Of a stretch of DNA of 64,000 bases, positions 7,454-48,569 are shown one piece after another (positions within the stretch are counted from its first letter, which is position 1; every line of letters starts with the position of its first letter). Position numbers and translations under genes: made by a program. The DNA is from Acanthosoma haemorrhoidale. Taxonomy: Eukaryota; Arthropoda; Insecta; Hemiptera; Acanthosomatidae. Below the pieces are notes generated by a model. The model was given only the letters and a program-made list of their open reading frames with translations. It ran no database searches and was not told the DNA's origin. The stretch is from contig OV884012.1 in the NCBI GenBank assembly GCA_930367205.1, positions 35,312,796 through 35,376,795 of the forward strand, read 5' to 3'.

Positions 7454-7483
7454 AACTATAAAATACACTGAAAATGTGTTAAG

Positions 7484-7785
7484 TTAGTGATCGGCGGACC
7501 TCTTCCTGGCTGCCCCGGGCCAGGAGGGCTCCTCGTCCCTCTGCAAGAAGAGGTACTTTGCGAGGTCCTGCTGCACCTGCTTGGCAGAGGGCGGAGGTAG
7601 CAGGCTGTCGACGCAGGGCTGCTGGGCGAGTTGCCGCCCCCGGTGAGCCCAAAAGGGAGGTGGCTGTTCCTCGCCTGAGCCGTCTGCGCGCCGGCCCCGG
7701 CTTGGCCAGAACCCGGGCTCTGCGGGGCCGCTCAGGACTGCCCTCATCACGTCAGTCCTTCTCTCCTCGCAGTGGCTCAACTGCG
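7484..7785 (-). CDS. Last exon of a natalisin-like (FWxxRamide) neuropeptide precursor
   Basis: This GC-rich exon stands out from AT-rich surroundings. It opens after a 3' splice site (ttgtttcag) in phase 0 and ends at TAA. It encodes about 99 residues laid out as a prepropeptide: a short lead with EERR, a peptide ending GFWPSRG followed by RR, a second ending PPPFWAHRG followed by R, and an acidic C-terminal part with a near-terminal RKR. Gly before basic residues signals C-terminal amidation. Natalisins, insect relatives of tachykinins, are known for FxxxRamide C-termini, and both peptides fit (FWPSR, FWAHR). Tachykinins proper have FxGxRamide, which neither peptide has. The phase matches the signal-peptide exon at 14397-14444, so I infer one gene with a 6.6-kb intron. 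Middle exons cannot be excluded. The identity rests on motif and layout only. Confidence 0.55.
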
Positions 7786-8589
7786 ACTGAAACAAGGCAT
7801 CGCACAATTTCTCTTTTAGATACCTGTCAAATTGACGATTTAATCTTTCATTTTAGCTATGGTTTCTAATTAATGCAATATACATAAAAATAATAACCAA
7901 TCGGACAATCCTTTCGGTATAGCAGTAACATGAACCAACAGTAGCATCTTCTTGCCGCTTGTAGTAAATCGATGATACAGAACAGCTGAAAGGATGTGTT
8001 TATAAATAATAGAATAACAGCAACATCTGCTTAGCCTCCCTTCAACATCCTTTGAGATGTAAAATGTCAACATTAACCGTACTAGTAACAAATAAATCAT
8101 TTGTGAACTATGCCTACTTGATTGGAATGGAATAATAACCAAAAAAATATATTTTATGTTTCAGGCATTTCCTGCTAAGAATTTTATATCACACTAATTG
8201 GTAAGTAAAAAATACTATCTAATTACCAATCGTGTTATATTATAGTTATGATTATATCTCCTCCCCTGAAGGTTTTTTGGTCCTAACAAAAATTAAATTT
8301 TCCCCCCATAATCCCTTGTAACAAAATTATTACAGAATTCAATATATATTCCATAAATTAATCTACTTACAATAGGTTATTATATTTCAGCTTGGCTACA
8401 GTTTATACAATTTCTAATTATCCTACATTGGATTTGCGCTTGTACAAAAGTATGATAATGCACGTTATACATTAATTTATAGAACATGTTTATAAGTGAT
8501 GGGGCTCACCTTATTTATTATAGACTTAAACCTAACAATTAAAACATAAACTAAATCTTAACCTAATTTTCCCTGACAGTCTGTTGTTA

Positions 8590-8850
8590 TCGATGCAGGA
8601 ATGGTGGTGGAGTCATAGTGTTATCTGTATTTGTTAGATGCTGCAACGAGTCAAAAACCTTGATGTGTCTCCGGTGATGAACTCACCCACCAGCGGCACA
8701 CCAAGCAATGTGTGTAGGTCGGCGTCCTTTAACCTCTCCCGAGAGGTATGTCGGACCACTTTTCTCATTATCCTATTCTGATATTGCTGGAGACTTTCAG
8801 CTATATTGTCAGTCAAGTGAGTAAATAGTGGGACACCGTACAACAAGGTG
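8590..8850 (-). mobile_element. Jockey-type LINE fragment (RT C-terminal part)
   Basis: Residues from 8846 down to about 8650 on the minus strand (YGVPLFTHLT...LQQYQNRIMRKV) align in order with the C-terminal part of the LINE reverse transcriptase at 21038-22030 (YGTPLFKYLT...LQQFKNRVL). This is the segment after the RT palm, where Jockey-clade ORF2 proteins share a similar pattern. The copy is truncated at both ends, is not catalytic and is clearly diverged from the 21-kb copy. Confidence 0.65.
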
Positions 8851-9070
8851 GTATGTTTCTATTATTTATCTGTGTACCATTTTTACATATCATATTGACC
8901 GGGATTCGGATGTATACAAACGGTTCTCTTTTATATTGCGCTGTGTCGTCGATTTCTATCTGGAAATAAAATCTATTCTTTCAGGAACACAAAAACAATT
9001 ATGTGGAAGTCGTGACTCTAAGAAACGCCATAACCGATGTATGATTATAAAAACCATCCCATTTTAGAAT

Positions 9071-11700
9071 AAGTGTAAAATTAGTATATACATTCCTAAT
9101 CATCGCATTAAAATATCGTTTTGTAACAATACGAAATGCCCTTGTGATATAAAAGGAAAGATCGTACTGTCCGATTATAGATTACCGATAGGTCTGACTG
9201 GAGAATCTACGGCGCACCTGTTGAGTGTGTCCCACAGCTAACCGAGTTAAGCGATCGTAACTGAGTTTGCTGGACATGACTGGAGCTGGAAAGAATTCTG
9301 AGGCGAAACCTCCCCCCCCCCCAACTTCAAATTGGATTGTCTGGAAATTTGGTTTTATTTGTGTATCGGCGGGGATGTACGTCACCAAGCGTGGCTAACC
9401 AACTTAGTGGTCGGCCGTTAATGTCCATTATTGTTTTTCAATCGTCTCTCAATTCCAGAAATTTTTTAGGCTTGGATAGAACCTCTTATGTAGACTTGCA
9501 TAAAAAGAATCTCGTAATGTCTGAAAATATCGATACAAATATAGCAACAATCATTTCCCAAGCTCCTTGATGAAACTCGATGAAACATAGCCAATACCCT
9601 CTATTCCGAGACATGACATCCCCACCGCTACCGGCAAGATGGCAACTCTCTAGATCTAGTAAAGCAGACCAAATGGTGGACATCACGGCGCTTGGCCCAC
9701 CAACAACAAGCCTCTAACGGGCACCCATCACTGCTATCCGACTAAATAAGACTGCACTACATGCCTAGAGGGACTCTAGGCCCAGCCACCAGTGGACTAC
9801 TGTACCGCAACAATCAACCTCTACCGAGGCCTCCCACACTCCTTAATTCCCTCACACCACCTTCAAGCAGGTACTCCTAGTACAAGGATCCGCTCAACCC
9901 AAATATTCCTTTATTTTTCCCTCATCCTTAATCTTATAATTAGTGAGCTAAGAAGAAAAAAAAGCTCTTCGATTCTAACTTTACAATATAATTAATGAGA
10001 AATCCACCTTAAGCGATGCTTTATTTCTTTTAAAAGATAAGCTCATGTAAAAAAATCTACCACTCGAAAGTCATAAAATCATCCCTACATCCTTCATTCC
10101 TCCTATTAGAATCCATATTCTATAACTTCAACCATAGAGCCCGTTCCGCTGACCAAAGCTCAGTTGTCTTGTCAGCTATTCTTTTCTAAAAATATTTATC
10201 ATATTTAGTAAAGTCTTATTGAAATATATCACTGTGTATAATGTATTATATGAAATACCTTTACATTCAACTTTAGAAGTATCTATGTATTGTAACATCT
10301 CTCGCTATGTCATGCCCGAACATTTGCCTCGATTCCATATTTTTTTTATTTAACTGCCTCATACAAATGCCAAGAAGTTTATTTAAGTACTAAATCCCTG
10401 TAAAGACTGTAAATGAAAAATGTTTCTTTTACTTAACAATCTCTCTGGCTGTGGGTTGCACCTGCACAAATGAACTGTCATTTTAAATACCCGGGGATGA
10501 ACTTGTACCTTACATGTTTCAGTTAATTACGGGAAGCGTTTGAGAAAAAATTATGACTGAATAAGTCGCTCAGGTAATTATAATCTGATCCGCTTCTCTC
10601 TGTTTTTAAGCTTATAAAGTATTGTCGACTCTTATAATTAACTCTTATATATTTATAGAAATCAGTGGTCTGACAACGTTATTTGCTGTTGATATAAAGC
10701 CATAACAACACAAATGTTTGTGCTCATTATTCGTTTAATGTCGGTTCAATATTCGTTTTATTTATTATTATTATTATGTTTACCTGATTCTTTGTACGTT
10801 TATTGGCAAAATAAAATACTTTTTTCATGAACTATGGCGTATCTCATACTGTTGAGGTCCTTCGGGATGTCTAAGTTTTTGGGTACAGAACACCTCTCCT
10901 AAATAGTGGTAACTATACAAATTAATCCGTAGTAAAAATCGAATTTACTGTAAGTATCATAGAAAAAAAAATTCTAAAATCGAAATCTATGCTAACAAAC
11001 CCCGATCTCCCCTTTTTATTTCAATATAATTTAATAAACAATTCATGAGCTCCGTAAGTACCTACCTATCGATGCTGATTCATTTTTTATTTCGTTCATA
11101 AATTTTGAAAATAATATTATGTAGTTAATGATTATTGGAAAGAAAATTTTTTAAATTCCAAGAGGAAACTCTAAGTCATTCCGTACGTACGGTAGTGTTG
11201 GTTTTAACAGGCAAGATGCCATGTCGAGCCGAGTACATTAAATAATTAAGACCATCCTTTTCTACGAAAATATTGGAGAAAATACGATGTATTGTCGCTG
11301 AAGCGGAGATGAAACTCGCACTGCATGCAGCAAACGCTGCGAAATCCTGAACTTGAAGAGTTAACAAATCCCCAACATTCGCTTCTTCACTAAAGAGGCT
11401 TTGCGTATCTCATACTGTTCATTACTCTGCTTCCTCGTCAATCACAAATGTCAATACGCTGAATTCATTTCCGAAGGGCAGAAGAACCTGTGGCTGGCCT
11501 AACCACGGATATAATAAAAAATAAAACATAGAGTTACAATGATTCAAAGGTTTTGAATAGGAAGGATGTGAATTGACTATGATCATGACACAAGTAAGGA
11601 GACTGTGAACAAGTTACGCTGCAATCTAATTCTAATAACTATTCATAATTATTTCTACTAAAGACTCACCCAATTCTGCTAATGAAAACGAAATAAATTC
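9071..11700. other. AT-rich non-coding stretch with one C tract
   Basis: A run of 11 C lies at 9312-9322. A slightly GC-richer patch at about 9590-9860 has no coding match and could be an old repeat. A minus-strand frame at 11176-11367 is open but shows no domain and no neuropeptide motif. Nothing else is recognised. Confidence 0.45.
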
Positions 11701-11704
11701 ACTT

Positions 11705-11776
11705 TCCACTCTGGGATTGGAACCCTGCCCGGAGCTAATTAACATAAAGCATTTACGCTATCCATTGCATCATATG
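11705..11776 (-). repeat. tRNA-like fragment, probable tRNA-derived SINE or tRNA pseudogene
   Basis: On the minus strand the sequence carries a good Pol III B-box-like block (GGGTTCCAATCCC, the T-arm of a tRNA) at about 11712-11728. An A-box-like block (GCAATGGATAGCG) lies about 40 nt upstream at about 11757-11769. The acceptor and anticodon arms do not fold into a clean cloverleaf by eye, so a functional tRNA is unlikely. A tRNA-derived SINE head or a decayed tRNA gene is the better reading. Confidence 0.4.
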
Positions 11777-14396
11777 AGATCCTGGAAGAGATGTTGACTC
11801 GGCAATACAGGAAAGGGACACTGTATGTATCCTATAATCTCCCGTAATCCGCCCAAGGCACCACGAAGGTAGTTTGTCTTTTGATAATCCTATTTTCCGC
11901 CTTGCTTAATCTGTCTTGGTCCTTTGTCTTCTACATCCTGTGACATTAATAATTGGTGATCCCCGTGAGATGATGCCAAGTTCGCACCACCGAAGCAGCG
12001 TTCAATGTTCAGTTGAATTGGTCGATGATTGATTGGTATGGGACGGAGCGGTGTTGGTTGACTGGTACATGTCCTCGCTTATTCCATATTGAACTTACAT
12101 ATTTTTAAAAAATATTAATATCAAATGCTGAATATATCAAAAATTTATTCGCAATTTTGTTACACATCAATCATAAATCAAATTGTATTTTAAAAAGTTT
12201 CGAGCGATATAGGACTTCGGGAGCTTTAAAAAAAGTGCATATTGATAGTGAGAAATACCATCATAATATTATTTGGTGAAAGCTGTGAACAGTGTTAATT
12301 TTTTACTTAAGGTAAGTCATTAATTACTAAACAGAACCTGCAACTTCCTTTGAGACCAAGCAACATATTCTGCATAACATTCTACAGTTCAAACAATTTT
12401 GTAACTTGCTGGCTTCCAACGTTATTTTTAAGTTATGCGACCTATTAATGAGCATTGTTTTGTGTATGGCTGTCGTGGTATAGCACGTTTCCTATTCATC
12501 AGGTTTATCGACCCACAAACTTAAATATATCACTTACCCTATCGTCTATCCCTGGCGAGGTGAAACACCCTTGTGAAATATACTGTTCCACTCAGTGATA
12601 TATTGTTAAGGGTTCCTATAAATTCTCGTAAAAACAGATTAGCGTTTCAAACACACAAAGACTTCCTAGGCAGGTGTGAAGCGCTGTGTGAAATTTACAA
12701 CGTCGTAATTATTTGTGCCAGGGTCTTGGAGTTGGCATGCGTTAAATATTGAATACAGACGAATAGGCCCTTACAACAACCAGCTACTTACTAATATAGA
12801 AGGTAATGGAGGTTTCAAATGCGCTACTGCCATTTAATCACAAAAAAAAACCTCTCATTTAAAATTATATTATTTCTACATTTTTAGGAAATTCCTCGTT
12901 GTAAATTAACAACATTAATGAAAGCACGACCTACGGTTAATATGATAAACCAGATTTTGTATGTCTGATTTACTTTCAAGTGATGTTCCAACAACCCCTA
13001 TACCCGTTTCCTGGTCCCCAACTTATTTTTTTTTCAATATAAAATCCACAGTAAATAATTCTTGGAAATGTACTTTATGAAGTATTTTTTATCACTAGAT
13101 CTTCTCTACCCTCGTGTTTGATTTCAATTGAATCGGTAGATAAATCCCCACGCAGAACGATAAGCATTTAGATGGAAAACGGGTACATTTGAATACTCGT
13201 CGTTCGCCTTCACTAATAGGTCGTATCAAAACGGAATGAGATGTACTCCCGATACATAGAAATGTATGCACGAGTCAGTTGCCGTGTTCTAAGGAGAAAT
13301 AGACCATTGAAAAAAAAATACTCGGTATGTTTAAGTAGGCACTTCACTTTTAAACATGTTCTATTGTTTTTATCTGTATGTACAACACAAACGGTCATGA
13401 AGATAATTTAACCGAATCAAATTAAGGGTGCATTGCACCTTTAACCTCCCGTAATACACTGATCAAGTTTGCTGGCTCAATAACAACTTTATCGCAAGAT
13501 AAACATGTCACTATTTCACCCCACGGTTTATTGCTGGTAAAAATAGTACCTAAAAAATCGATTCAAAATATTTGAAAAATATCATTGGACTTATAGGCTT
13601 CTATACAAATCAATGTTAAACCATAGGTTTCTAAATCCAACGTACAAAGAGAGATCTCAGATGAATGTCATACTCGCCTTATCTATCTATTACCTTTCAA
13701 CGAGGCGAAATACCTTTACGTTTTGTGCCTAAAATACAAATACAAACAAAACGTACTTACAAATAAATCGATAGAATGTAATGGAATAATATCATCCCAA
13801 CAGGCTGTGGGGTGGGACTCTAAATGGAATACCGATTTGTTTCATTTTTATCTATTTCAGCTATTGTATTATAACTCTCAGCCCCTAATGAAAGTACATT
13901 ACATAAGAGCGTACTAAACTTAGATAATATAGAATTTTCGTGCTTAAAAATATTCAATACTTCTTGTTATTCGATTAAGCAAATTTCTCAAATCAACAAG
14001 TAGTTTCCCGGCGTAGATATTATACAGGAATGTGTAGAGTATAATTGGCATTCTGGCCTCTCTGAATAATTATATTCAAATCGCTTTCTACCTCTTTGAT
14101 ACATACTTTTTTATATTTAAAAACATATTAGTCTAACACGAATTTGTTAGTGAGACCTCCTTGGGAGTTGAATTGCATGCTAGTGGAAGACTGCTTATTC
14201 AGATGTCATGAACTGACTTCTGATGCCCTCTCTTATACTCAGTTATTTCATCTGTAGAAAGATGAATGTAGCAGTAATAATAATAATAAAACAACGCAGT
14301 AATATAAAATCGCGGAATCTCGTACTTATCTATGTTAACAAAAAGTATAACAAATTGGGCATCGAAAAGATGTGCCATGTTTTGACGTGGAGTTAC

Positions 14397-14444
14397 CTGG
14401 AGCGCTAGGAGAGCGAAGAGGAGCAAAGACGGCAGCAGGGACAT
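14397..14444 (-). CDS. First coding exon: signal peptide of the neuropeptide-like gene
   Basis: The exon starts at an ATG on the minus strand and encodes 16 residues, MSLLPSLLLFALLALQ, a textbook signal-peptide core (Leu-rich hydrophobic stretch after a short polar start). It ends at a canonical donor, CAG|GTAACT, in phase 0. A short Leu-rich first coding exon with a phase-0 donor is common in secreted-peptide genes. The next exon seen with a matching phase is 7484-7785, which carries the amidated-peptide motifs. Joining them gives a secreted precursor of about 115 residues. The join is inference. The ATG lies 31 nt downstream of the last base pair of a TATATAA box, so either the 5' UTR is very short or the AG in GGGCAG just before the ATG is the acceptor of an upstream UTR exon. 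Confidence 0.5.
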
Positions 14445-18595: not shown

Positions 18596-18689
18596 TAAGA
18601 AACATATGATGTTTACCAGATAATAGATGTTTATGCTGAGTAACCTCTTAAACGATTCAAGATGCGCAAAAATATTTTGTTAATGTCAA

Positions 18690-20659
18690 AATTGAAAACA
18701 AGTTACAAACCTTTGAAGTGGATTCTGGTGCGGGACAGACTCTGCTACCCAAGTCTATTTTTCATAAACTTCAACTTAAAGCAAAAATTCAAAGCACCAA
18801 CATACGATTTAGGTCATACACATCTGAAATTGTGACTCCATTGGGTTATGTGGAAGCACTCGTTCAATACAGAGATATAGGATCGACAGAAATATTGTTT
18901 GTGGTTCCGGACGGATTTACACCTCTACTGGGCCGTACCTGGATTCGACATTTGAACATTAAACTGCAAGATTTAGACAGCAAGAGTATTTCATCCCAAA
19001 GTGATTCTATAGCATGCGTAAACACAACAAATTTTTCACAAAATATTTACTCGAAATTCAAATTAATTTTCGAGCAACGTGTTGGTTGCACTCCTAACAT
19101 TCAATGTAATTTAAAATTGAAAGAAAATTCAAAATCCGTATGTCTAAAAGCCAGAGAGATTCCATTCGCTCTAAAAACAAAGGTGGAAGAAGAGCTTAAT
19201 AACCTTGAAAGAGAAGGAATTATTACTCCAGTTCAAGTTAGTGATTGGGCATCACCGCTAGTTGTTATACCTAAGCCCGACGGGTCAGTAAGGCTTTGCA
19301 TTGATTATAAAGTAGCAGTCAGTCCTCAGCTTCTTTCAGCGCACTACCCGATTCCTAAAATTGATGATATTCTAAGTAATCTTCGAGATTCTAATTTTTT
19401 TTGTACATTGGACTTATTCAAAGCTTACTTACATATTCCGGTCGATGAAGAGAGCGCTAACGTTCAAACAATCATAACTCATAAAGGAACATTTAAATTC
19501 AACCGGCTGTCTTTCGGAATCAAGACTGCTCCAAGCGAGTTTCATCGCATCATGGACCAGATCCTGGCGGGTCTTCCTGGCGTTACAGCTTACTTTGACG
19601 ACATTATAGTGCATGGTTCAACTCTACAAGATTGTTACAATCGACTTTGTGCTTGCCTGGAAAGACTTCAATCTTACGATTTACATTTAAACCAAAAAAA
19701 ATGCCAATTTTTCAAAACTAAAATTAAATATCTTGGTTACATTGTTGAAGGAAACAAAATTTCAAAGGATCCATCAAAGATTAAGGCTATTACAGAAGCT
19801 CCACGACCTCAAAATCAAGAAGATGTTAAAAGATTTTTAGGAATCATCTCTTATTATTCAAGATTCATTCCAAATGCTTCAAAAATTACACATCCAATTC
19901 GATTATTACTCCAGAAGGTAAGAAAATTTCACTGGTCTTCGGAGTGTGAAATCGCCTTCAGAACTTCAAAAAATGAAATGGCTAATGATAGATTCCTAAC
20001 ACCTTTCAATCCTGAATTACCTGTAGTTGTAGCTAGCGACGCTTCGCCGACCGGCATAGCAGGTGTGTTGTCTCATGTAGTCGATGGCATAGAAAAGCCA
20101 ATTGCATATGCTTCAAGATCACTTTCGAAATCGGAAATGAATCATAGTCAGTTAGACAGAGAGGCTCTAGCCATTGTATTCGCCTCGAAAAATTTTTTTT
20201 ATTTTCTATTTGGAAGGACCTTCACGTTGATTACAGACAACAAACCACTAAGTAGAATTTTTCATGAAGGTGCAAACCTACCAGCGATGACATCCGCTAG
20301 CTTAATGAGATATGCGGCTTGGCTTACCAATTTTGATTATAAAATCCAGCATCGACCTGCAGAAGAAAATGTACATGCAGACTACCTATCAAGAACGCCA
20401 ATACAAGAAGAAACTACTGTAATTGAAGATAAAATTAATATGGAAGTTGACCTAATTTATAATGAATGTGTTTACAGTATTTCGAATAACTCATTAACTT
20501 ATAAAACTTTAGCAGAGGAAACAGCCAGGGACGAAGAATTATCTAAAATAAAATGTGATTTGCTAAATAATGATTGCTATGATTCAGAATACTATTTACA
20601 AAATGGAATATTTTTCAAGGGTCAGAGAATTATAATACCTTGAACTCTTCAAGAAGATG
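18690..20659 (+). pseudogene. pol: pol of the Mag-type element, 5' part: protease, RT, RNase H
   Basis: The open frame starts upstream of an aspartic protease motif (VDSGAGQTLLP, about 18718). It continues through reverse transcriptase with the catalytic box YFDD (about 19590, Phe in place of the usual Ile/Val/Met) and the thumb LGYIVEGNKIS. It then runs into RNase H, with the acidic residues in VVASDASP, REALAIVFA and LITDNKPL. An in-frame TGA at 20641-20643 ends it just before the LINE insertion. Integrase resumes after the insertion at about 22046. In a working element one polyprotein would copy the RNA and insert the cDNA. Confidence 0.88.
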
Positions 20660-20668
20660 TATTAAAAG

Positions 20669-22036
20669 TTTTTTTTTTTTTCTTAGCTCTTAAACTTATA
20701 AAAATAGGATGTGGGAAAAATAAAGAAAAATTATTTTGGGCTAATGAGTGCCTTTCACTAAGGGGAGTCCCCCATTTGAAGGATGTATGAGAAGGATATA
20801 GGGTGTGGAATGCCTAAAAAGGCGGATGGAATCAGGAAGGTAGTGAGAGTCTACCAAGGGTTGAGCCTAGGGTCACCTAGGCAATGGATTGTAGTCGGCC
20901 CGCCCCGGCAGGGGCCTGAAATGAGTCAGCCTCTCGGCCGGAAGGTCGACCCTGCTTACACAGGTAGATGGGGCATAGTGGCTTCGGTTGAGTCGGCCGG
21001 GAGATCGGCCTCGATATCTCGGCTGGGTGTAGTTCGTTCAGTCATCGGGTTCAATGACGTCGATCATCCTCCAGGCTTCGGCGGTCCAGCAGTGCTTCCA
21101 TCTGACGGGCATTGGTGGTGGTTGAAGGTCGGAGAATAGTGGGTTGTGGCTATGTCTGAGTGAGTCAAAAAATTTGATGTGCCTTCTCTTGATAAAATCT
21201 TGAATGGTGAGCACTTCAAATTTTTTATGCATCTCGTCTGCCTTCATTCGGTCGAACGGGCTATGTTTGAGGGAGGTGTGGAGAACTCTGTTCTTAAATT
21301 GCTGGAGCGTTTGGAGAGTGTTAGGAGTCAGATACTTGAAGAGAGGGGTCCCATACATCAAAGCAGGTCTTAGGACGCTCTGGTATATCAGCAGCTTGAG
21401 GCGTACCGATAAAGCCGGGCTGTGAAGTAGGTGTCCGAGGCTGAAGAATTTCTTCCTAACACTCTTTAATTTCTTGCCGAGATGCGTTGTGAACGACAAG
21501 TGCCTACCGAGGGTAATCCCGAGGTAGCACAGCTTGTTGCTTACAGGGCACTCTTTGCCGTCCAAGACGAAGGATTTCGGGAGCTTCTTTTTTCCGGATT
21601 TGTAACTGAATATAATTCCTTGCGTCTTGGCCGGGTTGACTTGAATGTGGACGGCATCGAGTTTCTCGGAGATCCGTTGACTAGCGCTCTCGGCGAATTT
21701 CAGGGCTCTGGAAGGATTGATGCTAGTGCTGTAAACACCTATATCGTCTGCATACGCGGATACCTCGCAGTTGGGGTACGAGGCTCCTACGATGTAGGCG
21801 GTGTAAATGTTGAACAGCAGGGGGCCTAGCACCGATCCTTGGGGGACACCGGCAGTGTAGTTTCTTCGGGTCGTAGACGTAGTGCCTATACGAACCGAAA
21901 AAGTTCTGCCTGTAAGGTAGGATCTTATCAGGTTCTGCAGCTGATCCGAGAATTCGTATTCCCTCAGACGTTGGAGTAAGATGTAGTGGTCCACAGAGTC
22001 GAAAGCTTTCGAACAGTCCAGAGAAATCATAGAGAA
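20669..22036 (-). mobile_element. 5'-truncated Jockey-clade LINE inserted in the Mag-type pol
   Basis: It lies in opposite orientation to its host element. On the plus strand its poly(A) tail appears as a T run at 20669-20680. Target duplications TATTAAAAG flank it (20660-20668 and 22037-22045). It keeps only the 3' half of ORF2 and a 3' UTR of about 350 bp, as expected from incomplete target-primed reverse transcription. The clean 9-bp duplications show that it jumped into the already present Mag-type element. Confidence 0.9.
21038..22030 (-). CDS. LINE ORF2 reverse transcriptase, C-terminal part (5'-truncated)
   Basis: About 330 open codons on the minus strand carry non-LTR reverse transcriptase blocks in order: motif A (LDCSKAFDSVDH), motif B (GVPQGSVLGPLLF) and the catalytic motif C (SAYADDIGVYS). 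The Jockey-type thumb and C-terminal region follow (YLGITLGRHLSF, LRPALMYGTPLF). The N-terminal endonuclease and the first RT blocks are missing by 5' truncation. The remaining frame is uninterrupted, so the insertion is fairly young, but no working enzyme can be made. The stop is at 21038-21040 and a 3' UTR follows. Confidence 0.88.
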   Translation of the reverse strand: MISLDCSKAFDSVDHYILLQRLREYEFSDQLQNLIRSYLTGRTFSVRIGTTSTTRRNYTAGVPQGSVLGPLLFNIYTAYIVGASYPNCEVSAYADDIGVYSTSINPSRALKFAESASQRISEKLDAVHIQVNPAKTQGIIFSYKSGKKKLPKSFVLDGKECPVSNKLCYLGITLGRHLSFTTHLGKKLKSVRKKFFSLGHLLHSPALSVRLKLLIYQSVLRPALMYGTPLFKYLTPNTLQTLQQFKNRVLHTSLKHSPFDRMKADEMHKKFEVLTIQDFIKRRHIKFFDSLRHSHNPLFSDLQPPPMPVRWKHCWTAEAWRMIDVIEPDD

Positions 22037-22045
22037 TATTAAAAG

Positions 22046-23178
22046 AGTTACACCACACGCATATAGGTATTGTGAAAATGAAGCAGTTAGCGAGAAGGTA
22101 TGTTTATTGGAAAAATATTTACCAACAAATTGAAAATCTTGTGAAATCCTGTCAAGAATGTGCTACCATAAGGAAAAATCCAGAAAAAGGTCCTATTCAT
22201 TCCTGGGAAGAGCCAACAGAAAATTTCTAGAGAGTCCATACAGACTATGCCGGACCATTTGAAAATCACCATTTTTTGTTACTGGTTGACGCCAAATCCA
22301 TCTGGGTGGAAGTGCGTATAGCAAAAGAAGCCCCTACTTCGCAAGAAACAATTAAATTATTACAATCGATATTCTATATCCAAGGATTTCCACGAATACT
22401 AGTTTCTGATAATGCAACCATTTTCAAGAGTGAGAAATTCACCGAATTCTGTGATATGGCCGGAATTAAACAAAAATTTATAGCTCCGGGACATCAGGCT
22501 ACGAACGGATTGGCGGAGAGGAATGTTCAGACACTCAAAAACAAATTGAAAGCAATGTCTAAATTGACAATGCCTCTGGAGACAAAAGTTCAAGAGGTAC
22601 TCCTGCGCTACCGTTCAACGCCGTTAGCCTGTGGGAAATCTCCGGCAGAACTGTATCTCAATAGGAGAATTAATATAAAGCTAGATGCACTTAAACCACC
22701 GACTAACAAGTCTGATTTATCTCCAGATAAGTATAAGAAAGTTCGCCAACTCCAGATAGGAGACAGAGTACAAGCTAGGTGGTATGCAAATGGCAAATCT
22801 TCATGGAGATTTGGCCCTGTAATCAAGAAATTCGGCAAGTTGCACTACTTAATCACCTTAGATGGGGATGGCTACACCTTGAAGCGCCACATCGACCAAC
22901 TGCGTCTCGTGTACGTTCCAGAGCAGATAAAGAATGACATTGCTCCTAGTCAAGCTTCGCATGCTAAGAAGAAATTTACCTTCTCTGACAACGAAATTAG
23001 GCAGCCAAGGAATTCTGCAACTCCCACATCACCAGTTGAGCCTTCAACCATCACTGCTCCTGATCCAGTAACCACAGAGACTACACATCCGGCAGCACAA
23101 CCTGAATTCCAGCCTCTACGTAGATCCCAGAGACAACGTCGCGTTCCGGCTCACTTTTCTGATTATGTGCTTAACTAA
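22046..23178 (+). pseudogene. pol: pol of the Mag-type element, 3' part: integrase
   Basis: It resumes directly after the LINE's right target duplication with an HHCC zinc-binding region (His pair in LHHTHIG, Cys pair in CQEC). A catalytic core follows with the D,D-35-E triad: Asp in VHTDYAG, Asp in VSDNATIF and Glu in GLAERNVQ, with exact 35-residue spacing between the last two. A TAG stop at 22228-22230 separates the zinc finger from the core. The C-terminal part has the LTR-integrase domain (GDRVQARWY...WRFGPVIKKFG) and a Pro/Thr-rich tail ending just before the 3' LTR. Confidence 0.88.
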
Positions 23179-30852: not shown

Positions 30853-31983
30853 ATGCCCATTACTGACAGACTTAATATAAACCGTAACTTAGAAGAAACC
30901 GTAAACATGGCTTCTAACGATTACAAAATTTCTACTACAGACCTTAAACTGATCCCAGAATTTGACGGAAATCCCAGCCATCTAGTAAGATTTATTAATA
31001 AAATAAATTTTGTAGCGAATAACGTCTGCACAACTGACAATCCACATCACGAATATAACGCGAAACAATTGATAGGACATGCAACAAACAAATTAGTAGG
31101 ACATGCCGAATATTGCGGAAGACGGAACTATAACTCTTTACTAGAACTGATCCAAGAACTCAAACTTAACTTTCGTGACGACAAAACAATACCCCAATCC
31201 ATAGCAGAAATATATCAAACTAAACCCTTAAGAAACGAACATCCCAATAGCTATGTAGAAAGACTGATATTATTACGAGACGACCTTGAAGGTAGATTAT
31301 ATACGGACGACACAAAAACAGACTTACAAAAACACACAGAGATAAACGTATTTGACGAACAAATAGTTGACCATTGCCAAAGACAACTTGAAACTTCAGT
31401 TGACAATTTCCTCCAACACCTACGAATTAAAAATTTGAGGGATTTGAAAAAGGCATTAAAAACCACAGCAGTACGAGTAGTCGAAAGAGCATACGGTAAC
31501 AAACTAACACACAACGAATCCACACAAAGACGCAGTCAAAACCAACCACCCTCCACTAGCAATTATAAAGGGAGGAATTACGACCCACATTATCACGAGA
31601 AAAAACGTGAATTTTATGACAATAATAGACAACAATTTAATGACAATAATAGACAACAATCCCAACAACCAAGACAGTACAATCAAGAACAACCACGTTT
31701 TAACAATAACTACCCCCGAGACGAAAACGAAAGACATAATCAATCATGGAAACCCTATGAACAAAGACAATACTTTAACAAACCAAACCCCAGACCGGAA
31801 CAAAGAGAAAATCAAACCGTATCAATGCGCACAGCCAGCAATCGCGTACACTACACGGAAAATGACAAAGACCAACAAATAAATGAATTACAAGACAGAA
31901 TACAACAATTAGAATCTCGTTATGAGGATTTTTTAGACGTAGGTCCCAACAACAACGAACCTCCAGACCCGAATACCAATTAA
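30853..31983 (+). CDS. gag: Errantivirus Gag
   Basis: An intact frame of 376 codons. It has the errantivirus capsid start (LIPEFDGNPSHLVRFINKI), a capsid-like middle and a basic, Asn/Gln/Arg-rich C-terminal part with a short imperfect repeat (FNDNNRQQ). No CCHC knuckle is present, as usual for errantiviruses. A coiled-coil-like end (INELQDRIQQLESRYEDFLD) reaches the slippery site. Gag builds the particle and binds genomic RNA. The annotated ATG is the first in frame. ATG at 30907, codon 19 (context AACATGG), looks like the better start and begins the conserved part. Confidence 0.9.
   Translation: MPITDRLNINRNLEETVNMASNDYKISTTDLKLIPEFDGNPSHLVRFINKINFVANNVCTTDNPHHEYNAKQLIGHATNKLVGHAEYCGRRNYNSLLELIQELKLNFRDDKTIPQSIAEIYQTKPLRNEHPNSYVERLILLRDDLEGRLYTDDTKTDLQKHTEINVFDEQIVDHCQRQLETSVDNFLQHLRIKNLRDLKKALKTTAVRVVERAYGNKLTHNESTQRRSQNQPPSTSNYKGRNYDPHYHEKKREFYDNNRQQFNDNNRQQSQQPRQYNQEQPRFNNNYPRDENERHNQSWKPYEQRQYFNKPNPRPEQRENQTVSMRTASNRVHYTENDKDQQINELQDRIQQLESRYEDFLDVGPNNNEPPDPNTN
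31929..31935 (+). promoter_or_regulatory. -1 ribosomal frameshift site, T TTT TTA
   Basis: The heptamer T TTT TTA sits in the correct Gag phase. The pol frame has a stop (TGA) at 31923 just upstream and is open from 31926 on, and Gag ends at 31981-31983. Slipping back one base on the heptamer moves ribosomes into pol. It is the same heptamer used by HIV-1. Any stimulating RNA structure downstream was not assessed. Confidence 0.8.
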
Positions 31984-34900
31984 ATTACACGGACAGTCTC
32001 CCAAAAATAAAAGACAAAAAAGGCAAGACATGGCTGATTGACACTGGAGCTTCTAAAAATTATATCAATCCCCGTTCCTTACCCGAGGGAACAAAAATTA
32101 ATTCGGAAGACTTTGTAATGAAAACTCCTACAGGCAGAGCCGAAGGCACTCAAAGCGCCATAATCGATCTCTATCCCCTGTTAGGAATTCAAGCAAAGGT
32201 AAAAATGCTAATTTACCCCTTTAGCAATCGTTTCGATATTCTTTTAGGATACGAAACGATGAAAGAACTGAAAACTGAAATAAAATGTCACAATGACGAA
32301 ATAATAATAAACGGAACCAAACATAACCTGGAAAATGAAATTTACTATATAAATGACTTACAGACAATAAAACAACTAATTAGGACAGACCACATTGATA
32401 ACAAGCTTTCGGACGAACTTGTGGTACTGATTGGTAAATATGGTGAAATAATAAAAACAAATGAAGAAAAATTACGCGCGACAAATTTAATTAAACACAA
32501 AATAAACACAAAAAACGAAAACCCTTGCTACACTAGGAACTATCGGTACCCCGTGCAATTCAAAAATCAAATAAATGAAGAAGTCGCGAATTTATTAAAA
32601 AATAACATTATTAGAAAGAGTAACTCCCCATACAACTCACCAGTATGGATAGTACCAAAAAAAATGGATGCCTCGGGCATAAAAAAAGTTCGAATGGTAA
32701 TAGACTACCGAAAACTGAACGAAATGACGACTAATGACAAATACCCACTACCCAACATTGAAGACTTACTAAACAGACTACAAAAAGCAAAAATATTCTC
32801 AACAATAGACCTTGCATCAGGATTCCATCAAATCGAAATGGATCCAGATTCAATACCAAAAACCGCATTTAGTACAGAAGACGGACACTTTGAATTCTTA
32901 CGAATGCCCTACGGACTTTGTAACGCACCACCCACATTCCAACGAGCCATGAATATGATGATAGCGAACGTCCCTAACGCTATGATATACATTGACGACA
33001 TAATCATTTACTCGAACACAATACAAGAACACCTAGAACATCTCGAAAACGTATTCCAAAAGTTAAAAGAACATGCACTTTCTATCCAATTAGACAAGAC
33101 TGAATTTTTTAAAACTGAAATCCCCTTCTTAGGATATATTGTCACTCCCGACGGACTAAAAACTAACCACAAGAAAATAGAAGCAATCACAAAATTACCA
33201 TACCCAAACAACGAAAAAACGACTAGACAATTTCTCGGAATGACCGGATACTACCGAAAATTCATAAAAGACTATGCGAAAATAACGAAACCAATTTCGA
33301 AATCACTACAGACTAAAACATACGAGACAGAAGAAATAAAAAAGGCTTGTGACATACTAAAAACCCTCATGACAAATTCACCAATATTAGCATACCCGGA
33401 CTGGAATAAGACATTTTACTTAACGACAGACGCAAGTGATAAAGCCATCGGCTCAGTGCTATCGCAAAAAGATAACGACGGAATAGAACACCCAGTAGCA
33501 TTCGCCTCACGAGTATTACAGCCTCCCGAGATAAACTATTCAACAATTGAAAAAGAACTTTTAGCAATTGTTTGGTCTACACACCATTTCAAACCATACT
33601 TGTACGGTACTAAATTCCAACTACTAACTGACCACAAACCATTAAAATGGATCTATACAATGAAAAACGGAAACACCAGAATCATGAAATGGATCTGGAA
33701 ATTACAGGACTTTGAATTTGACATAAACCACATTAATGGAAAAACAAATTACGTAGCGGACTTACTATCACGACAAAACGAGAACTTAGAACAAAACACA
33801 AATACTAACCATATAGACGGAGATTTTGACGAATTTCTAAACGAACTAGCAATACTCCCGTTAGACGAAAACCCAGACTATGACACACTTATAGAAGAAT
33901 TAGAAAACATGACTCAAACAGAACAAATAAATGACGCAATTAGTACATGTGGAGCAACTGTTCACTCCCAACGATCATCCAACGAACAAATTTGGATAGT
34001 AGACAATGACAAGAATATTAATATAGAGAAACATCAGATAATAATAAAAAAGGGAATAAAAGAAACAAACTTTACTAAACCATTTAACAAAAACAGACAT
34101 GAAATTAAATTTGACAACTTAGACGACTTAGAATCACTAATCGAACAATTTATTAGACCCAAAATTACTTATGGAATTTACTGTGAACCAGATATCCCAT
34201 TACTCCAACCATGGTACGATAAAACATTTAAAGACATTTCTAGACTAATACAAGAATCATACCCAACAGTTAAACTAAAAAGATACAAAAACTATGTAAC
34301 CGATATCTTAGACAAAGAAGGACAAATTGAAATAATTAATGACTACCACATAGGAAAAACATCCCACAGAGGCACAATCGAAACATACGACAAACTTAGA
34401 AAATTATACTACTTCCCGTTAATGAAAGAAACAATTAATGACTTTATTAACAATTGTAAGACATGTAAGAAAACTAAATACGAACGCAACCCTATAAAAA
34501 CAAAGTACATGATAACACCAACACCAAATAGACCGTTCGAAGAATTGATGATAGACACATTACATTTTGACAGAAAATACATCGTAACTATAATTGACAC
34601 ATTCTCGAAAAGACTATTTACACACATGATACCAGCCGTAACTGGAATTAACATATGCGAAGCCATCAAACTTTACTTAACACTATATCCAACACCCGTA
34701 TCGATAAAAATGGACAACGGCAAAGAATACAAAAATAATTTAGTACTCAACTTCTTACAAACTAACGAAATCGAACCAATTTACGTGACCCCAGGAAATC
34801 CTAATTCATTAGGAACACTAAACAGAGCACATAGTACACTCATCGAAATATTACGAACACTTAACGAAAAAGAACTAACAAACACATCATTAAATAACAG

Positions 34901-35393
34901 ACTAATGCTAGCAACAATAGCATACAACAATACCTTAAACTCTAAACTAAACATGACACCGGACGAAATAACATTCGGAATAACAAGAAGACCTAACAAA
35001 CAAATAGAAATAAAAGAACAATACGTACAAAAATACCATGACGAAAAGAACATAATACATGAACTAATACGGAATAAAATCGTGACAGAAAAAGAAAATA
35101 GAACAGAGTTATTAAATACAAATCGCGAAGACCCACCTGACATAAATGACGAACAGATATATATAAAAACAACCCATCACCGCAAATACAATAATCCCTA
35201 CAGACCCGTACTGTTGTACAAAGACAGAAAAGAAATAAACAAAACACATATAAATAGGATCAAAAGACCACGTAAACAACACTTGAGACCGAGACCAAAC
35301 ATTACTGTTTCAGAAGGAGAAAATGAATCCTACTCGGACAGTACTAATCCAGACACTTCTATGGACATTAACATATACTATGACAGTGACTGA
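31935..35393 (+). CDS. pol: Errantivirus Pol (protease, RT, RNase H, integrase)
   Basis: One unbroken frame of about 1,150 codons after the frameshift. The order is aspartic protease (WLIDTGASKNYI, about 32031), reverse transcriptase (MVIDYRKLN; catalytic YIDD at about 32988), RNase H (Asp in TTDASDKA, Glu in EKELLAIVW, Asp in LTDHKPLKW), then integrase. Integrase has the zinc finger (YHIGKTSH ... CKTC) and a core with Asp in MIDTLHFD and Asp in KMDNGKEY. Exactly 35 residues after the second Asp, where the third catalytic residue (Glu) is expected, the sequence has Asn (GTLNRAHST, about 34829-34831). Strand transfer by this copy is therefore doubtful, although every other hallmark is intact. 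The end of the frame overlaps env by 71 bases. Confidence 0.9.
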   Translation, partial: RRRSQQQRTSRPEYQLNYTDSLPKIKDKKGKTWLIDTGASKNYINPRSLPEGTKINSEDFVMKTPTGRAEGTQSAIIDLYPLLGIQAKVKMLIYPFSNRFDILLGYETMKELKTEIKCHNDEIIINGTKHNLENEIYYINDLQTIKQLIRTDHIDNKLSDELVVLIGKYGEIIKTNEEKLRATNLIKHKINTKNENPCYTRNYRYPVQFKNQINEEVANLLKNNIIRKSNSPYNSPVWIVPKKMDASGIKKVRMVIDYRKLNEMTTNDKYPLPNIEDLLNRLQKAKIFSTIDLASGFHQIEMDPDSIPKTAFSTEDGHFEFLRMPYGLCNAPPTFQRAMNMMIANVPNAMIYIDDIIIYSNTIQEHLEHLENVFQKLKEHALSIQLDKTEFFKTEIPFLGYIVTPDGLKTNHKKIEAITKLPYPNNEKTTRQFLGMTGYYRKFIKDYAKITKPISKSLQTKTYETEEIKKACDILKTLMTNSPILAYPDWNKTFYLTTDASDKAIGSVLSQKDNDGIEHPVAFASRVLQPPEINYSTIEKELLAIVWSTHHFKPYLYGTKFQLLTDHKPLKWIYTMKNGNTRIMKWIWKLQDFEFDINHINGKTNYVADLLSRQNENLEQNTNTNHIDGDFDEFLNELAILPLDENPDYDTLIEELENMTQTEQINDAISTCGATVHSQRSSNEQIWIVDNDKNINIEKHQIIIKKGIKETNFTKPFNKNRHEIKFDNLDDLESLIEQFIRPKITYGIYCEPDIPLLQPWYDKTFKDISRLIQESYPTVKLKRYKNYVTDILDKEGQIEIINDYHIGKTSHRGTIETYDKLRKLYYFPLMKETINDFINNCKTCKKTKYERNPIKTKYMITPTPNRPFEELMIDTLHFDRKYIVTIIDTFSKRLFTHMIPAVTGINICEAIKLYLTLYPTPVSIKMDNGKEYKNNLVLNFLQTNEIEPIYVTPGNPNSLGTLNRAHSTLIEILRTLNEKELTNTSLNNRLMLATIAYNNTLNSKLNMTPDEITFGITRRPNKQIEIKEQYVQKYHDEKNIIHELIRNKIVTEKENRTELLNTNREDPPDINDEQIYIKTTHHRKYNNPYRPVLLYKDRKEINKTHINRIKRPRKQHLRPRPNITVSEGENESYSDSTNPDTSMDINIYYDSD
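35312..35313 (+). promoter_or_regulatory. Candidate splice acceptor for env mRNA
   Basis: tactgtttcag ends at 35313, nine bases before the env ATG. Errantivirus env is made from a spliced mRNA. A possible donor is G|GTAAAT at 30824/30825 in the leader before gag. Confidence 0.45.
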
Positions 35394-36867
35394 TATAAGA
35401 GATAACCCCGGAGTCCTACATTACACTATAAAGAACGCAAAGGTAATAGAAAATTACTACAGGACATACCATTTTTATGACATTAGCTTACTTGACAAGG
35501 AACTAAACAATATACAGAACAATGTACCATCTTATAGGGACCTACCGACATACCCTATAATCAAAAACCTTATCATACAAACACAAAACAAATTAAACCT
35601 ATTAAAATCACACAACAAACGAACTAAGAGAGGACTAATAAACGGACTTGGAACAGCTCTCAGCTGGCTTACTGGCACCATGACAGCTGATGACAAATCA
35701 CATTATGACGAAGTAATAAATGAGTTAGGACGGAACAACTATAATATAGAACACAACATAGAACAAGACATAAAACTTAATAAACACGTAATTAAAAACT
35801 TTCAAAAGGACATACAATTAATTAATAATAATTTTAAAACAGAACAAGACAACATAATGAAGATAAACAAGGAAATGACATTCTTTGACATGTACATAAT
35901 TCTGACACACCTACACAACAAAATAGATGAACTTACATTAACACTGGAACTATGCAAAATTGGCATCACACACTCATCATTAATGTCCCAAATACTACAT
36001 GACATAAACCAAAATGTAAATCTAGCTTCTAGGAATCCTGAAATCCTGTGGATAATGAGTAAAATTCATTGCACTACTCATAATGAAACACTCCATATCT
36101 TTGTAGACCTTCCTAAGGCAACCCCAAATATAAAGACTTATTTACTCATACCTTCGCCTGTAAAAATTAACAACCAATATGTAACTTTAGATATAGACGA
36201 AACTATTATAATAAAAAAATTTAATATGTTATATACAACAAATTGTACATTTTTAAACAATGAATATTACTGTAAAAACCTTTTTATTTTAAATAATACT
36301 TGTATAAATAATATTATTTCATCTGGAACGATGAATGCATGCAAATATAAATTAACCAATACTAACATTAGATATATAGATAATATAAACAGTTTTATAA
36401 CTACTAACCTCTCCAAATTAGACAATTGCCTTACTAATGATACTGTATACCTACCACCCGTTAGCTTACTCACCCTAGATCAAAATGATTGTTATAAAGA
36501 ACTCCCCAAAATTTCAAGACATATAATAGACTCCACCATAAACAAATTGTACAATAAAATAGATATAGATGTAATCGCAAATATAAGCGAAATAGAAAAC
36601 CTAAATATAACAGACATAGTTTTAGAACCACTTATATTTAATCAATCAAATACTTATTTTTATTTTTATTTAATTATAGGGGCAGCTATTATAATTGTAA
36701 TCCTCTACTACCTTAAAAAATGTAAAACTACCAATTCCTTACAAAACCCTACACCAACAGTTGTATACCATCCCGGACAACAAGAGCCTATCAACATTTT
36801 GGCAACAAGGGTTTATCACCCAAATAACAGCCCTCATGCACCCGCAGCCATCAACTTAATTTCTTGA
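35323..36867 (+). CDS. env: Errantivirus envelope glycoprotein (Env)
   Basis: An intact frame of 514 codons in a different phase from pol. It starts with a hydrophobic signal-peptide-like segment (residues about 6-22). A furin-type site RTKR ends at residue 103 and is followed by GLINGLGTALSWLTG, the conserved fusion-peptide region of errantivirus Env and the related baculovirus F proteins. A long ectodomain with several N-x-S/T sites follows, then one transmembrane segment (about 444-463) and a cytoplasmic tail of about 50 residues. The protein would sit in the particle envelope and mediate cell entry. No internal stop is present. Expression probably depends on splicing to the acceptor at 35313. 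Confidence 0.9.
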   Translation: MNPTRTVLIQTLLWTLTYTMTVTDIRDNPGVLHYTIKNAKVIENYYRTYHFYDISLLDKELNNIQNNVPSYRDLPTYPIIKNLIIQTQNKLNLLKSHNKRTKRGLINGLGTALSWLTGTMTADDKSHYDEVINELGRNNYNIEHNIEQDIKLNKHVIKNFQKDIQLINNNFKTEQDNIMKINKEMTFFDMYIILTHLHNKIDELTLTLELCKIGITHSSLMSQILHDINQNVNLASRNPEILWIMSKIHCTTHNETLHIFVDLPKATPNIKTYLLIPSPVKINNQYVTLDIDETIIIKKFNMLYTTNCTFLNNEYYCKNLFILNNTCINNIISSGTMNACKYKLTNTNIRYIDNINSFITTNLSKLDNCLTNDTVYLPPVSLLTLDQNDCYKELPKISRHIIDSTINKLYNKIDIDVIANISEIENLNITDIVLEPLIFNQSNTYFYFYLIIGAAIIIVILYYLKKCKTTNSLQNPTPTVVYHPGQQEPINILATRVYHPNNSPHAPAAINLIS

Positions 36868-37710: not shown

Positions 37711-38687
37711 TTTGGAATGATACTCGGGTATCGCCAACGATTTCTCGGCAGCATCTACCGTCATAGATGACACTATCGCGTGTTGAATGGAATACGCGTG
37801 GCTGTGTCCGATCTGTATGACTCGCTCACCCCGGGTTCTCAGATTTCGCTATTTAGTCCGAGTAGCTGCGTGTCACTGTCAACATAGAGCGGTATTAACA
37901 CATTAATTCCTGAAATATTATTTACAAAGGTCAGGTTGCAAGAAGTTGACATATGTTTTTCTTTCGTAGTGCCAAAGTTTTTTCATAACCCTTTTGGCAA
38001 TCAATACGTTATAACCAATGGTCGGTTTTTTAGTTTTAATGGCGTAAAACCGTTCGGTGATCATCGCCCTCTTGATTAAATATAATACAGTAATAAATAA
38101 AAACAAATCACATATAAAAACCGGCACAGCGGTCCAAACCATAGCCACTTGTCGAGTAGCTTAGTTGAACACTAATTGGGATCCAACATATGGTACTGTA
38201 AATTACACAGTTGTTATTACTCATTAGAACAAATATAGAAATAATTTCACAAAATTAAACATAAAATAAATCACTTTTGATCCGTGATTAATGAATTATA
38301 TATTTATATGTTTGCCAGAAACCATTTTATGTGTAAAGTTAACTTAGTATCATACTTCATTATGGCAGAATAGTTTTCATCGTTCAGCCTTGACTTATTA
38401 GAAAAGACCTATGATTTCACGTTATTCACGTAAAATTACTTCCAGCTTCGAAATATCGTTAATTTAATAGCAAAACGATCTGTGCTTACCCGCGAATGAT
38501 GAGACTTGACCTTCACGGGTCATGGTGAAAAACTGACCTCCATTCGCTGGTATGAGGTCAGGGAGGGGGGGGGGCATTACAACATTATCTTGTGATAAAA
38601 ATAGCGATTTCCCTTTTTTAACCTCTTGGTGAGATTGGTGAGATATATATATATAGAATTGGCATTGGAATGCCCGAGCTGATTACT
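37711..38687. other. AT-rich non-coding stretch ending in a small (TA)n
   Basis: A minus-strand frame at 37918-38148 begins with a hydrophobic segment but has no recognisable domain or exon borders. A short (TA)n lies at about 38644-38655, just before the BEL/Pao fragment. Confidence 0.45.
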
Positions 38688-40000
38688 TTTATTTCAAGGT
38701 GGAGCTGAGTGGAACCGAAATCACAAAGCGTTCTATGTTATCAACTGTCGCGTGGTTATTTGACCCGCTAGGCTTCCTAGCCCCAGTGATATTCACGGCA
38801 AAGTACATGATTCAATCTCTCTGGCGAGAAAAGTTGGATTGGGACGATTCTCCACCGACTTTAATCAAAGAACAATGGGTCGGATATTTGAAAGAATTGC
38901 CAAGTGTAAGCAACATCACCATTCCTCGTTGGATCCATATCACTGAAGGAAGGTTAAAAATATTTGGATTCTGTGACGCCTCAGAAAAGGGATTTGCTGC
39001 GGTTGTGTACTTGCAAAATGTGACTGCTGATTTCAAGAACCAAACATTCCTCTTGACCGCCAAGACTCGAGTTGCTCCGTTAAAGACGGTTTCCATTCCG
39101 AGGTTAGAATTATGCTCAGCGCATCTCCTTACCAAACTTTCAAAGTCGTTGTCTCAGTTTTACCACCTAAACCACATTAAGGATGTACTTTTTTTCACGG
39201 ACTCCACTATAGTGCTTAGCTGGTTACAGATTCACCCGCAGGACCTTAAAAGATTTGTTGCCAACCGGATTGGCTACATATTGACGCACACCCACGTCCA
39301 CCAGTGGCATTATGTTCCTTCTCCCCAAAATCCCGCTGATAAAGCCTCACGAGGTATTCAACCCCATAACTAATCGATTGTGACTTGTGGTGGAACGGCC
39401 CAAAGTGGATGAATGAATTGCCGTTGACTCTTCCTGAAGCACCTGCGGCAATACGAAGTCTTCCTGAATGTAAAACATCTGATAGCTCTGTTTTAGCTGT
39501 GAGTATCCCGAATTCTTCTTTTATGGACAACTTGATGCAAGACTGGATGGAATCTTCTTCACAATTTCTGAATTTGATTCGTAAAGTAGCTTATGTTTTC
39601 CGTTTCATAAACAATTTGAAACAGCCACAAAACAAACATACTTCTACTTTAACAGTCACTGAACTGGGAGAAGTAACCACTTTCTTGATCCGGAAAATGC
39701 AATATCAGTTTTTCCAACCAGATTATGACTTTAAGGCCAGGGAATGTACTTCATCACGTTTTAAGTCCTTGGCAGTTTTTGAAGATCCTTCTGATCTACT
39801 CAGGGTGGGCGGAAGGTTGTCTAACGCACCATTGCCGCATGACTTGAGGCATCCCATACTGCTGCCTTCCAGAGCTAGACTAACAACAATGATTATTGAC
39901 CATGCACACCAGAAAAACTTTCACTTAGGTCCTCAAGCTCTGCAAGCATATATAATTCGGAGATATTATATTTTCGGTATCAGAAGCGTGGTAAGAAAAC
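38688..40000 (+). pseudogene. pol: BEL/Pao retrotransposon pol fragment
   Basis: The plus-strand frame carries the BEL/Pao-specific end of RT and RNase H. Examples are STVAWLFDPLGFLAPVIF, the acidic RNase H residue in FGFCDASEKGF, TVSIPRLELCSAHLL, and DSTIVLSWLQ followed by VANRIG. A frameshift near 39370-39390 moves reading to a second frame with the integrase N-terminal region (LWWNGPKW, RVGGRLSNAPL, HPILLPS, HxxxxHxG-like HAHQKNFHLGPQ). The fragment stops at a (TA)n at about 40001, where element A begins. Protease, most of RT and the integrase core are absent. No LTR could be assigned with confidence. Confidence 0.85.
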
Positions 40001-43600: not shown

Positions 43601-43979
43601 ACCCCCCCCAACTTGATCCGCCACTCCTTTCCCTTGTTCTCTACAAGCGCGCCTACCCGACCCAATAAGTCACACCCCACTATTATTTCATACTCGCGCG
43701 GCATGTACTCCACAATATGTACGTTAATATCGCCCTTTTTTTTCGCCCATTTCTCTAAATTCACGACCGCCTCTCCCACCACTTTACAGGGCCCGCCCAG
43801 GGTAATTAACTTGCACTTACATACCTTGACCTGGAGTGCCCTCTCTCTGCCATACAGCCGCTCCAACGCACCGCGTGACATTATGGTATTGGTGCTTCCT
43901 GTATCCACCAAGCACCTCTCTCCCCCCTCGACTCTAATTATTGGCAACTCGCACAGTATCCCTCTCACTGTATTACACT
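40633..43979 (-). pseudogene. pol: pol of element A: protease, RT, RNase H, integrase, with two stops
   Basis: It is one continuous reading phase on the minus strand. Protease (CLVDTGSTNTIM) is followed by RT (VVVDFRKLNENTTDEKYPIPRFEDIL; catalytic YMDD at about 42950). RNase H ([15 protein letters not shown]) is cut by TGA at 42421-42423 and resumes in the same phase. A TAA at 41641-41643 falls inside the HHCC zinc finger. The integrase core is intact: Asp in LQIDTF, Asp in SSDGGREF, Glu in GGIERLHST, with exact D35E spacing. The frame relates to gag by -1. The TAA is also present in element B, so it predates the separation of the two copies. Confidence 0.9.
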
Positions 43980-44504
43980 TTAGGGTGCGGTCGCCACTCT
44001 GCTGCCACCCTCCTCAGGCTGCCACACGCCGCTACTCTGCCTTGATGATTTTGTTTCCCGGAACATCTGGAAAATATCTTCTTCAGGCGTCCATCGCCCC
44101 CCTCCATATGCTTTCTTTAGCCGCATCTTCACCGTTTCCCACGACGTCTCCTCATCCGCTTGGATCTGGTTGAGAATCCTTCTCTTGACCCGACATATCA
44201 GGGCCGCTCTTAGTGACTCTGCATCCCTGGGGTCCAGAAGATTTTCCTCCGATTTTGCTAGAATTAAGGCAGTGAGGCGATCTCCTCCCTTCAGAAAGTG
44301 GTTGAGTTCTCCTAATTCGCCAGTGAACCATTCCAGCTCTGAAATTGCATTTCTCAGATCTTGAGTGTTCATTGCTTTCACTCTCATCAACGCAAGAGCG
44401 GTAGCATGAGCTTCTGGCAAAATGCCCACCCTTCTCGTTGCTACATGTTCCGCGCCATCCGCTACGTTCAGAACAGGTGGTCGTAGCACGCCTCCTTCTG
44501 CCAT
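43980..44504 (-). CDS. gag: Short Gag of element A
   Basis: Open from ATG at 44504 to TAA at 43980-43982, 174 codons. The protein has a capsid-like middle (LGELNHFLKGGDRLTALILAKSEENL, SWETVKMRLKKAYGG), in keeping with Gypsy-type Gag. It is about half the usual length (350-450 residues) and lacks the basic nucleocapsid region or zinc knuckle. I infer an internal deletion that joined the capsid end to the start of pol. Pol follows in the -1 phase. Confidence 0.7.
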   Translation of the reverse strand: MAEGGVLRPPVLNVADGAEHVATRRVGILPEAHATALALMRVKAMNTQDLRNAISELEWFTGELGELNHFLKGGDRLTALILAKSEENLLDPRDAESLRAALICRVKRRILNQIQADEETSWETVKMRLKKAYGGGRWTPEEDIFQMFRETKSSRQSSGVWQPEEGGSRVATAP

Positions 44505-48567: not shown

Positions 48568-48569
48568 AT

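Follow-up and report, generated by a model that had tools for sequence, protein, structure and literature searches.

A probable natalisin precursor gene with a trimmed C-terminus in the heteropteran bug Acanthosoma haemorrhoidale

Does a 64,000-nucleotide stretch of the Acanthosoma haemorrhoidale genome (assembly GCA_930367205.1, contig OV884012.1, positions 35,312,796 to 35,376,795; hereafter the window, meaning this whole stretch) hold a gene for a secreted neuropeptide precursor and, if so, is that precursor a natalisin or a tachykinin? A preliminary description, made by reading the letters, had joined two distant exons into a natalisin-like precursor with two amidated peptides. We consider it very probable that the window holds the natalisin (NTL) precursor gene of this heteropteran bug, in which a third, C-terminal natalisin has decayed. 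What the sequence itself shows is an open frame with splice, peptide and cleavage motifs, along with homology to natalisin precursors; the gene adds one more member to an established family, ordinary save for its trimmed C-terminus. The gene model comprises the following features.

14481-14475, minus strand: TATATAA, proposed as a TATA box, 37 bases 5' of the ATG and not convincing
14444-14397, minus strand: exon 1 (coding part), 48 bases, GC 60%, MSLLPSLLLFALLALQ; ATG at 14444 in the context CAAACATG; hydrophobic signal-peptide core; phase-0 donor CAG/GTAACT
14396-7787, minus strand: intron, 6,610 bases, GT...AG, GC 35%; acceptor TTGTTTCAG/TCG at the 7787/7786 border with exon 2
7786-7484, minus strand: exon 2 including the stop codon, 303 bases, 100 residues, GC 68%; encodes the remainder of the signal peptide, followed by two natalisins, a degenerate spacer and a degenerate third peptide
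7756-7697, minus strand: predicted natalisin 1, TDVMRAVLSGPAEPGFWPSR-amide (...GFWPSR-NH2), flanked by RR and G-RR as putative cleavage sites
7687-7640, minus strand: predicted natalisin 2, ADGSGEEQPPPFWAHR-amide (...PPPFWAHR-NH2), flanked by RR and G-R as putative cleavage sites
7576-7538, minus strand: degenerate spacer VQQDLAKYLFLQR, in the bed bug AQEPKYLLIQRR; Glu-Pro and one Arg lost
7528-7499, minus strand: degenerate third natalisin, PSWPGAARKR (site SWPGAA), in Rhodnius and Rhynocoris PFWVSRGRKR
7453-7448, minus strand: probable polyadenylation signal AATAAA, starting 31 bases 3' of the stop codon

Joined in phase 0, exons 1 and 2 give an open frame and a precursor of 116 residues, MSLLPSLLLFALLALQ/SQLSHCEERR-TDVMRAVLSGPAEPGFWPSRG-RR-ADGSGEEQPPPFWAHRG-R-QLAQQPCVDSLLPPPSAKQVQQDLAKYLFLQRDEEPSWPGAARKRSADH (the slash marks the exon join), with splice motifs and cleavage sites legible in the sequence, as the preliminary description had proposed. 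Exon 1 lies where it had been placed; the start of exon 2, given as 7785, was wrong by one base and is 7786. Another acceptor was tried after GACAG at 7824, where a phase-0 join meets an in-frame stop codon, and hence the usable acceptor is that at 7787/7786. The TATATAA upstream of exon 1 is present but is not upheld as a TATA box, since it lies too near the ATG, where it would leave a 5' untranslated region of a few bases only, and is frequent in this AT-rich window (24 occurrences on the plus strand, 28 on the minus strand).

Both predicted amidated FxxxR peptides that had been read from the sequence, GFWPSRG-RR and PPPFWAHRG-R, stand in the joined frame, and homologues carry peptides of the same type. 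The first core reads FWPxRGRR in nine of ten aligned precursors (FYPTRGRR in the psyllid) and the second PPFxAxRGR in all ten. That these are peptide-like motifs in a chance open reading frame has negligible probability. The pattern F-x3-R-G-[KR] does arise by chance: a six-frame scan of the window gave six matches, and the four besides these two each have a stop codon in the short context shown; however, homology to a bed bug protein and to further relatives already refutes this explanation. When the joined protein was run with phmmer against 5.8 billion proteins, two relatives were listed up to E = 10, LOC106661900 of the bed bug Cimex lectularius (P0001; E = 5.5e-20, 60% identity over 67% of the query) and an unnamed protein of 160 residues (P0002; E = 3.4e-16).

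A first profile, built from the window protein and these two, matched nine rows: the bed bug, P0002, Rhynocoris fuscipes (P0003; E = 3.5e-31), Rhodnius prolixus (P0004; E = 3.2e-28), P0005, Lycorma, Macrosteles, Bemisia and Cacopsylla. A second profile, of the window protein and those nine rows (ten sequences), matched 34 rows, 28 of them new and including Nilaparvata, Laodelphax, Blattella, Diaphorina, Colias, Tribolium, Diabrotica, Anabrus and Schistocerca. Scoring in both profile searches was confined to the candidates with the most shared words (7,989 in the first and 7,994 in the second), and profile members match their own profile by construction. The two rows named natalisin, from Anabrus simplex (E = 2.9e-31) and Schistocerca gregaria (E = 8.5e-16), were not members of the second profile, nor were Tribolium P0032 (E = 4.4e-8), Nilaparvata, Laodelphax or Blattella. 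In all, the profile searches place homologues in bugs, planthoppers, whitefly, psyllids and cockroach, and the protein search suggested at the outset found FxxxRamide precursors that agree with the proposed reading, named natalisins and Tribolium among them. Pairwise, 27 of 44 residues were identical to Blattella in the block from RTDVMRA to FWAHRGRQL and 21 of 40 to Schistocerca.

In a tree of 14 rows picked from 38 (the window protein and 37 others), the window protein grouped with Cimex, Rhynocoris, Rhodnius and the unnamed P0002 (support 97/95); the tree flagged the branch of P0002 as long and left the branching inside this five-row group open. The bed bug protein resembles the window protein in its signal-like N-terminus, in EDRRSDVRAVL, GFWPTRGRR and EEQPPPFWAHRGR, and in having just two intact FxxxRG motifs; it differs in its third site, which reads LWVRGKK, and in its intact spacer. 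Rhodnius and Rhynocoris have the same order of parts and likewise end soon after RKR, but they keep three intact motifs, the third being FWVSRGRKR. Schistocerca P0030, Anabrus P0025 (partial) and Tribolium P0032 also carry several FWxxRG motifs ahead of basic residues, and the motifs number 8 in the locust, 12 in the Mormon cricket and 2 (FWANRGK, FYVTRGK) in Tribolium.

The ending FxxxRamide is common to natalisin and tachykinin (PMC4730192), and insect tachykinin-related peptides, whose receptors are related to that of natalisin according to PMC6880623, share it with the window peptides. That the gene encodes a tachykinin-related precursor is nevertheless highly improbable. The commonest insect tachykinin ending is FxGxRamide (PMC4730192), whereas FWPSR and FWAHR have Pro and Ala, not Gly, at X2. 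None of the 34 rows of the second profile was named tachykinin and two were named natalisin, most being unnamed, so that tachykinin is set apart here by consensus and by names. Instead, more than one peptide has FxxxR-Gly ahead of a mono- or dibasic site (FWPSRG-RR, FWAHRG-R), in agreement with the FWxxRamide described for natalisin in Lepidoptera and Hemiptera (PMC4730192). According to PMC6321106, X1 of hemipteran natalisin is usually W and X2 P; FWPSR agrees with both of these published consensuses and FWAHR with that of PMC4730192 only. Homology extends to the Anabrus and Schistocerca natalisins and to the Tribolium TcNTL1 precursor: P0032 contains ASGQEEFGPFWANRGKK, the peptide that PMC4730192 describes as TcNTL1, and reads ASGQEEFGPFWANR followed by GKK. 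The predicted membership of the natalisin family is well supported by these sequence comparisons, and the natalisin identity put forward earlier, with FxxxRamide and no tachykinin Gly, is borne out.

Is the distant exon 1 the true first exon? Exon 2 could be genuine and its first exon lie elsewhere, or a further exon lie in between, with 14444-14397 a chance signal-like open frame. Exons 1 and 2 are separated by 6.6 kb, a MAFFT alignment puts the window's join two residues ahead of the LQ found in the relatives, and just past this point a Rhodnius isoform has 10 residues more than Rhynocoris, a pattern that may occur at an exon border. We scored every phase-0 ATG...GT stretch 10-30 codons long that precedes exon 2 on its strand (n = 710, with 446 different ATGs), together with 613 plus-strand candidates as controls. 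With the signal peptides of three bugs (Cimex, Rhynocoris and Rhodnius), manually truncated after LQ, as references, exon 1 ranked first of 710 with a mean score of 21.3 (second, 13.7; top control, 14.7). With untruncated N-termini extending to RRSDV as references, and the first part of exon 2 appended to each candidate, it again ranked first (46.0; second, 38.0; top control, 37.7). The clear gap to the second candidate and to the best control in both tests, along with a donor that agrees with the usual consensus at eight of nine positions, makes a misplaced or missing exon very unlikely. At the protein level, the N-termini of the three bugs speak for the proposed join, and the hydrophobic N-terminus that came out on top is consistent with a secreted precursor.

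What, then, became of the C-terminus? The compact precursor first described holds in that only two peptides are intact, and its layout probably reflects a decayed third natalisin. At the third site, PFWVSRGRKR of Rhodnius corresponds to PSWPGAARKR in the window, PLWVRGKK in Cimex and PQWLTRGRM in P0002, and the site is degenerate in these last three of the five members of the tree group. Exactly two F-x3-R-G-[KR] motifs occur in 5 of 38 rows (the window, Cimex, P0002, Tribolium P0032 and P0037), compared with three in Rhynocoris, three in Rhodnius and four in P0005. A loose spacer pattern (A/V-D/E/Q-E-P...R), drawn from this alignment and not a known published criterion, matched 31 of 38 rows; the window protein is among the seven non-matches, some of which, such as P0002, keep EP by eye. 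On these comparisons, the two-peptide layout is probably a derived state in which the third natalisin kept in Rhodnius and Rhynocoris was lost. Another frame (ORF 7479-7751) still gives L-L-A-R-G at the third site (...ALLARGSQEEV...), so a compensated frameshift may have destroyed the third peptide, judging from that reading alone. Whether the branch of the bed bug and the window species trimmed natalisin to two peptides through decay of the third, with the spacer also gone in the window, we regard as evenly balanced. The five-row branching and the long P0002 and window branches are compatible with a single loss of the third peptide as well as with several.

Several observations weigh against the natalisin assignment as a whole. 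P0002, P0003 and P0004 are members of the second profile yet absent from its matches, and its list is therefore incomplete; Tribolium matches pairwise over a short segment only (9 of 16 residues identical); the window's end branch in the 14-row tree is long (1.11); a Pfam search with the joined protein gave no family even at E = 10; and the decay of spacer and third peptide could hint at relaxed constraint. The degenerate spacer and third motif, together with the long branch, would also suit a natalisin gene turning pseudogene, with the rest of the gene perhaps unexpressed. However, the frame, splice sites, start context, cleavage sites, both amidation glycines and the poly(A) signal are intact, and the peptide cores are kept relative to the bed bug (PGFWPSRGRR vs PGFWPTRGRR; EEQPPPFWAHRGR identical), making a decaying gene unlikely and a natalisin precursor that has lost its third peptide the preferred reading.

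Precursors with two natalisins have precedents in the two motifs of Tribolium and the two peptides of the Varroa precursor, which is 5'-incomplete (PMC4730192). Natalisin is reported in Diaphorina and, citing others, in Rhodnius upon reinvestigation (PMC6321106). Beetles are stated to have lost it at least twice (PMC6585902), and a thrips is described in PMC7570057 as having neither natalisin nor its receptor. In the account of PMC6250713 it went undetected in Nezara and was reconstructed only partially in Halyomorpha, and a table in PMC10570428 gives a partial natalisin sequence for Picromerus lewisi, marked S1, which we take to mean one short peptide. A literature search with the peptide cores found no insect-neuropeptide paper by title among those listed, and a natalisin of A. 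haemorrhoidale may already have been published; a search with the amide forms matched only Varroa and shrimp papers. The bed bug genome paper (PMC4740739) has no mention of 'natalisin' in its main text. The bed bug, Rhodnius and Rhynocoris homologues bear database labels of uncharacterized or hypothetical protein.

Much of the remaining window is retroelement: Ty3/gypsy-type frames that encode reverse transcriptase (RT), RNase H and integrase, along with one further RT and a Pao-type frame. A Pfam search covered 10 of the 70 listed open frames; seven had RT, integrase, Pao or transposon-like helix-turn-helix matches above the Pfam cut-off, one (HTH_29) fell below it and two had no match. Rfam and tRNA scans of the window gave no matches, and repeats between 7000 and 15000 amounted to nothing beyond short two-copy or two-arm matches. 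The surrounding features are as follows.

18652-23178, plus strand: gypsy-type element, its RT and integrase frames apparently parted by an opposite-strand element
21038-22162, minus strand: the RT-bearing element inside the preceding one, likely a nested insertion
31926-36867, plus strand: long Ty3/gypsy-type frame of 1155 amino acids (RT, RNase H, integrase), then an overlapping 526-amino-acid frame, unmatched in Pfam, that has a hydrophobic stretch close to its end; by position and look, the latter would be the envelope gene of an errantivirus-like element
38657-39373, plus strand: fragment of a Pao-type retroelement (Peptidase_A17)
40633-44519 and 45668-47250, minus strand: similar open frames, which suggests two copies of one gypsy-type element, the second shortened
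48202-48579 (DUF4817) and 53807-54226 (HTH_29, below the Pfam cut-off), minus strand: short helix-turn-helix frames, likely transposon remnants

According to PMC6880623, the natalisin system, which has a receptor of its own, apparently stems from a duplicated tachykinin system; knocking it down alters mating in Drosophila and the number of eggs in Tribolium, and in Bactrocera peptide and receptor both play a part in mating. By analogy, the gene would be transcribed and spliced in A. haemorrhoidale, exon 1 supplying the signal-peptide core and exon 2 the remainder of the precursor, which would enter the secretory pathway and be cleaved at its basic sites. The Gly of FWPSRG and FWAHRG would become the C-terminal amide of two natalisins, both of which would act on the natalisin receptor (a tachykinin-receptor-like G protein-coupled receptor; TakR86C/NKD orthologue) in mating and fecundity circuits. 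The locus illustrates that a short two-exon neuropeptide gene can be recognised by reading raw, retroelement-rich sequence, and the alignment offers the name natalisin for the unlabelled bed bug, Rhodnius and Rhynocoris entries. On a small scale, the lost third peptide offers a testable case of shrinkage in multi-copy neuropeptide precursors; if true, bugs of the branch that holds the bed bug and the window species might signal with fewer, more specialised natalisins.

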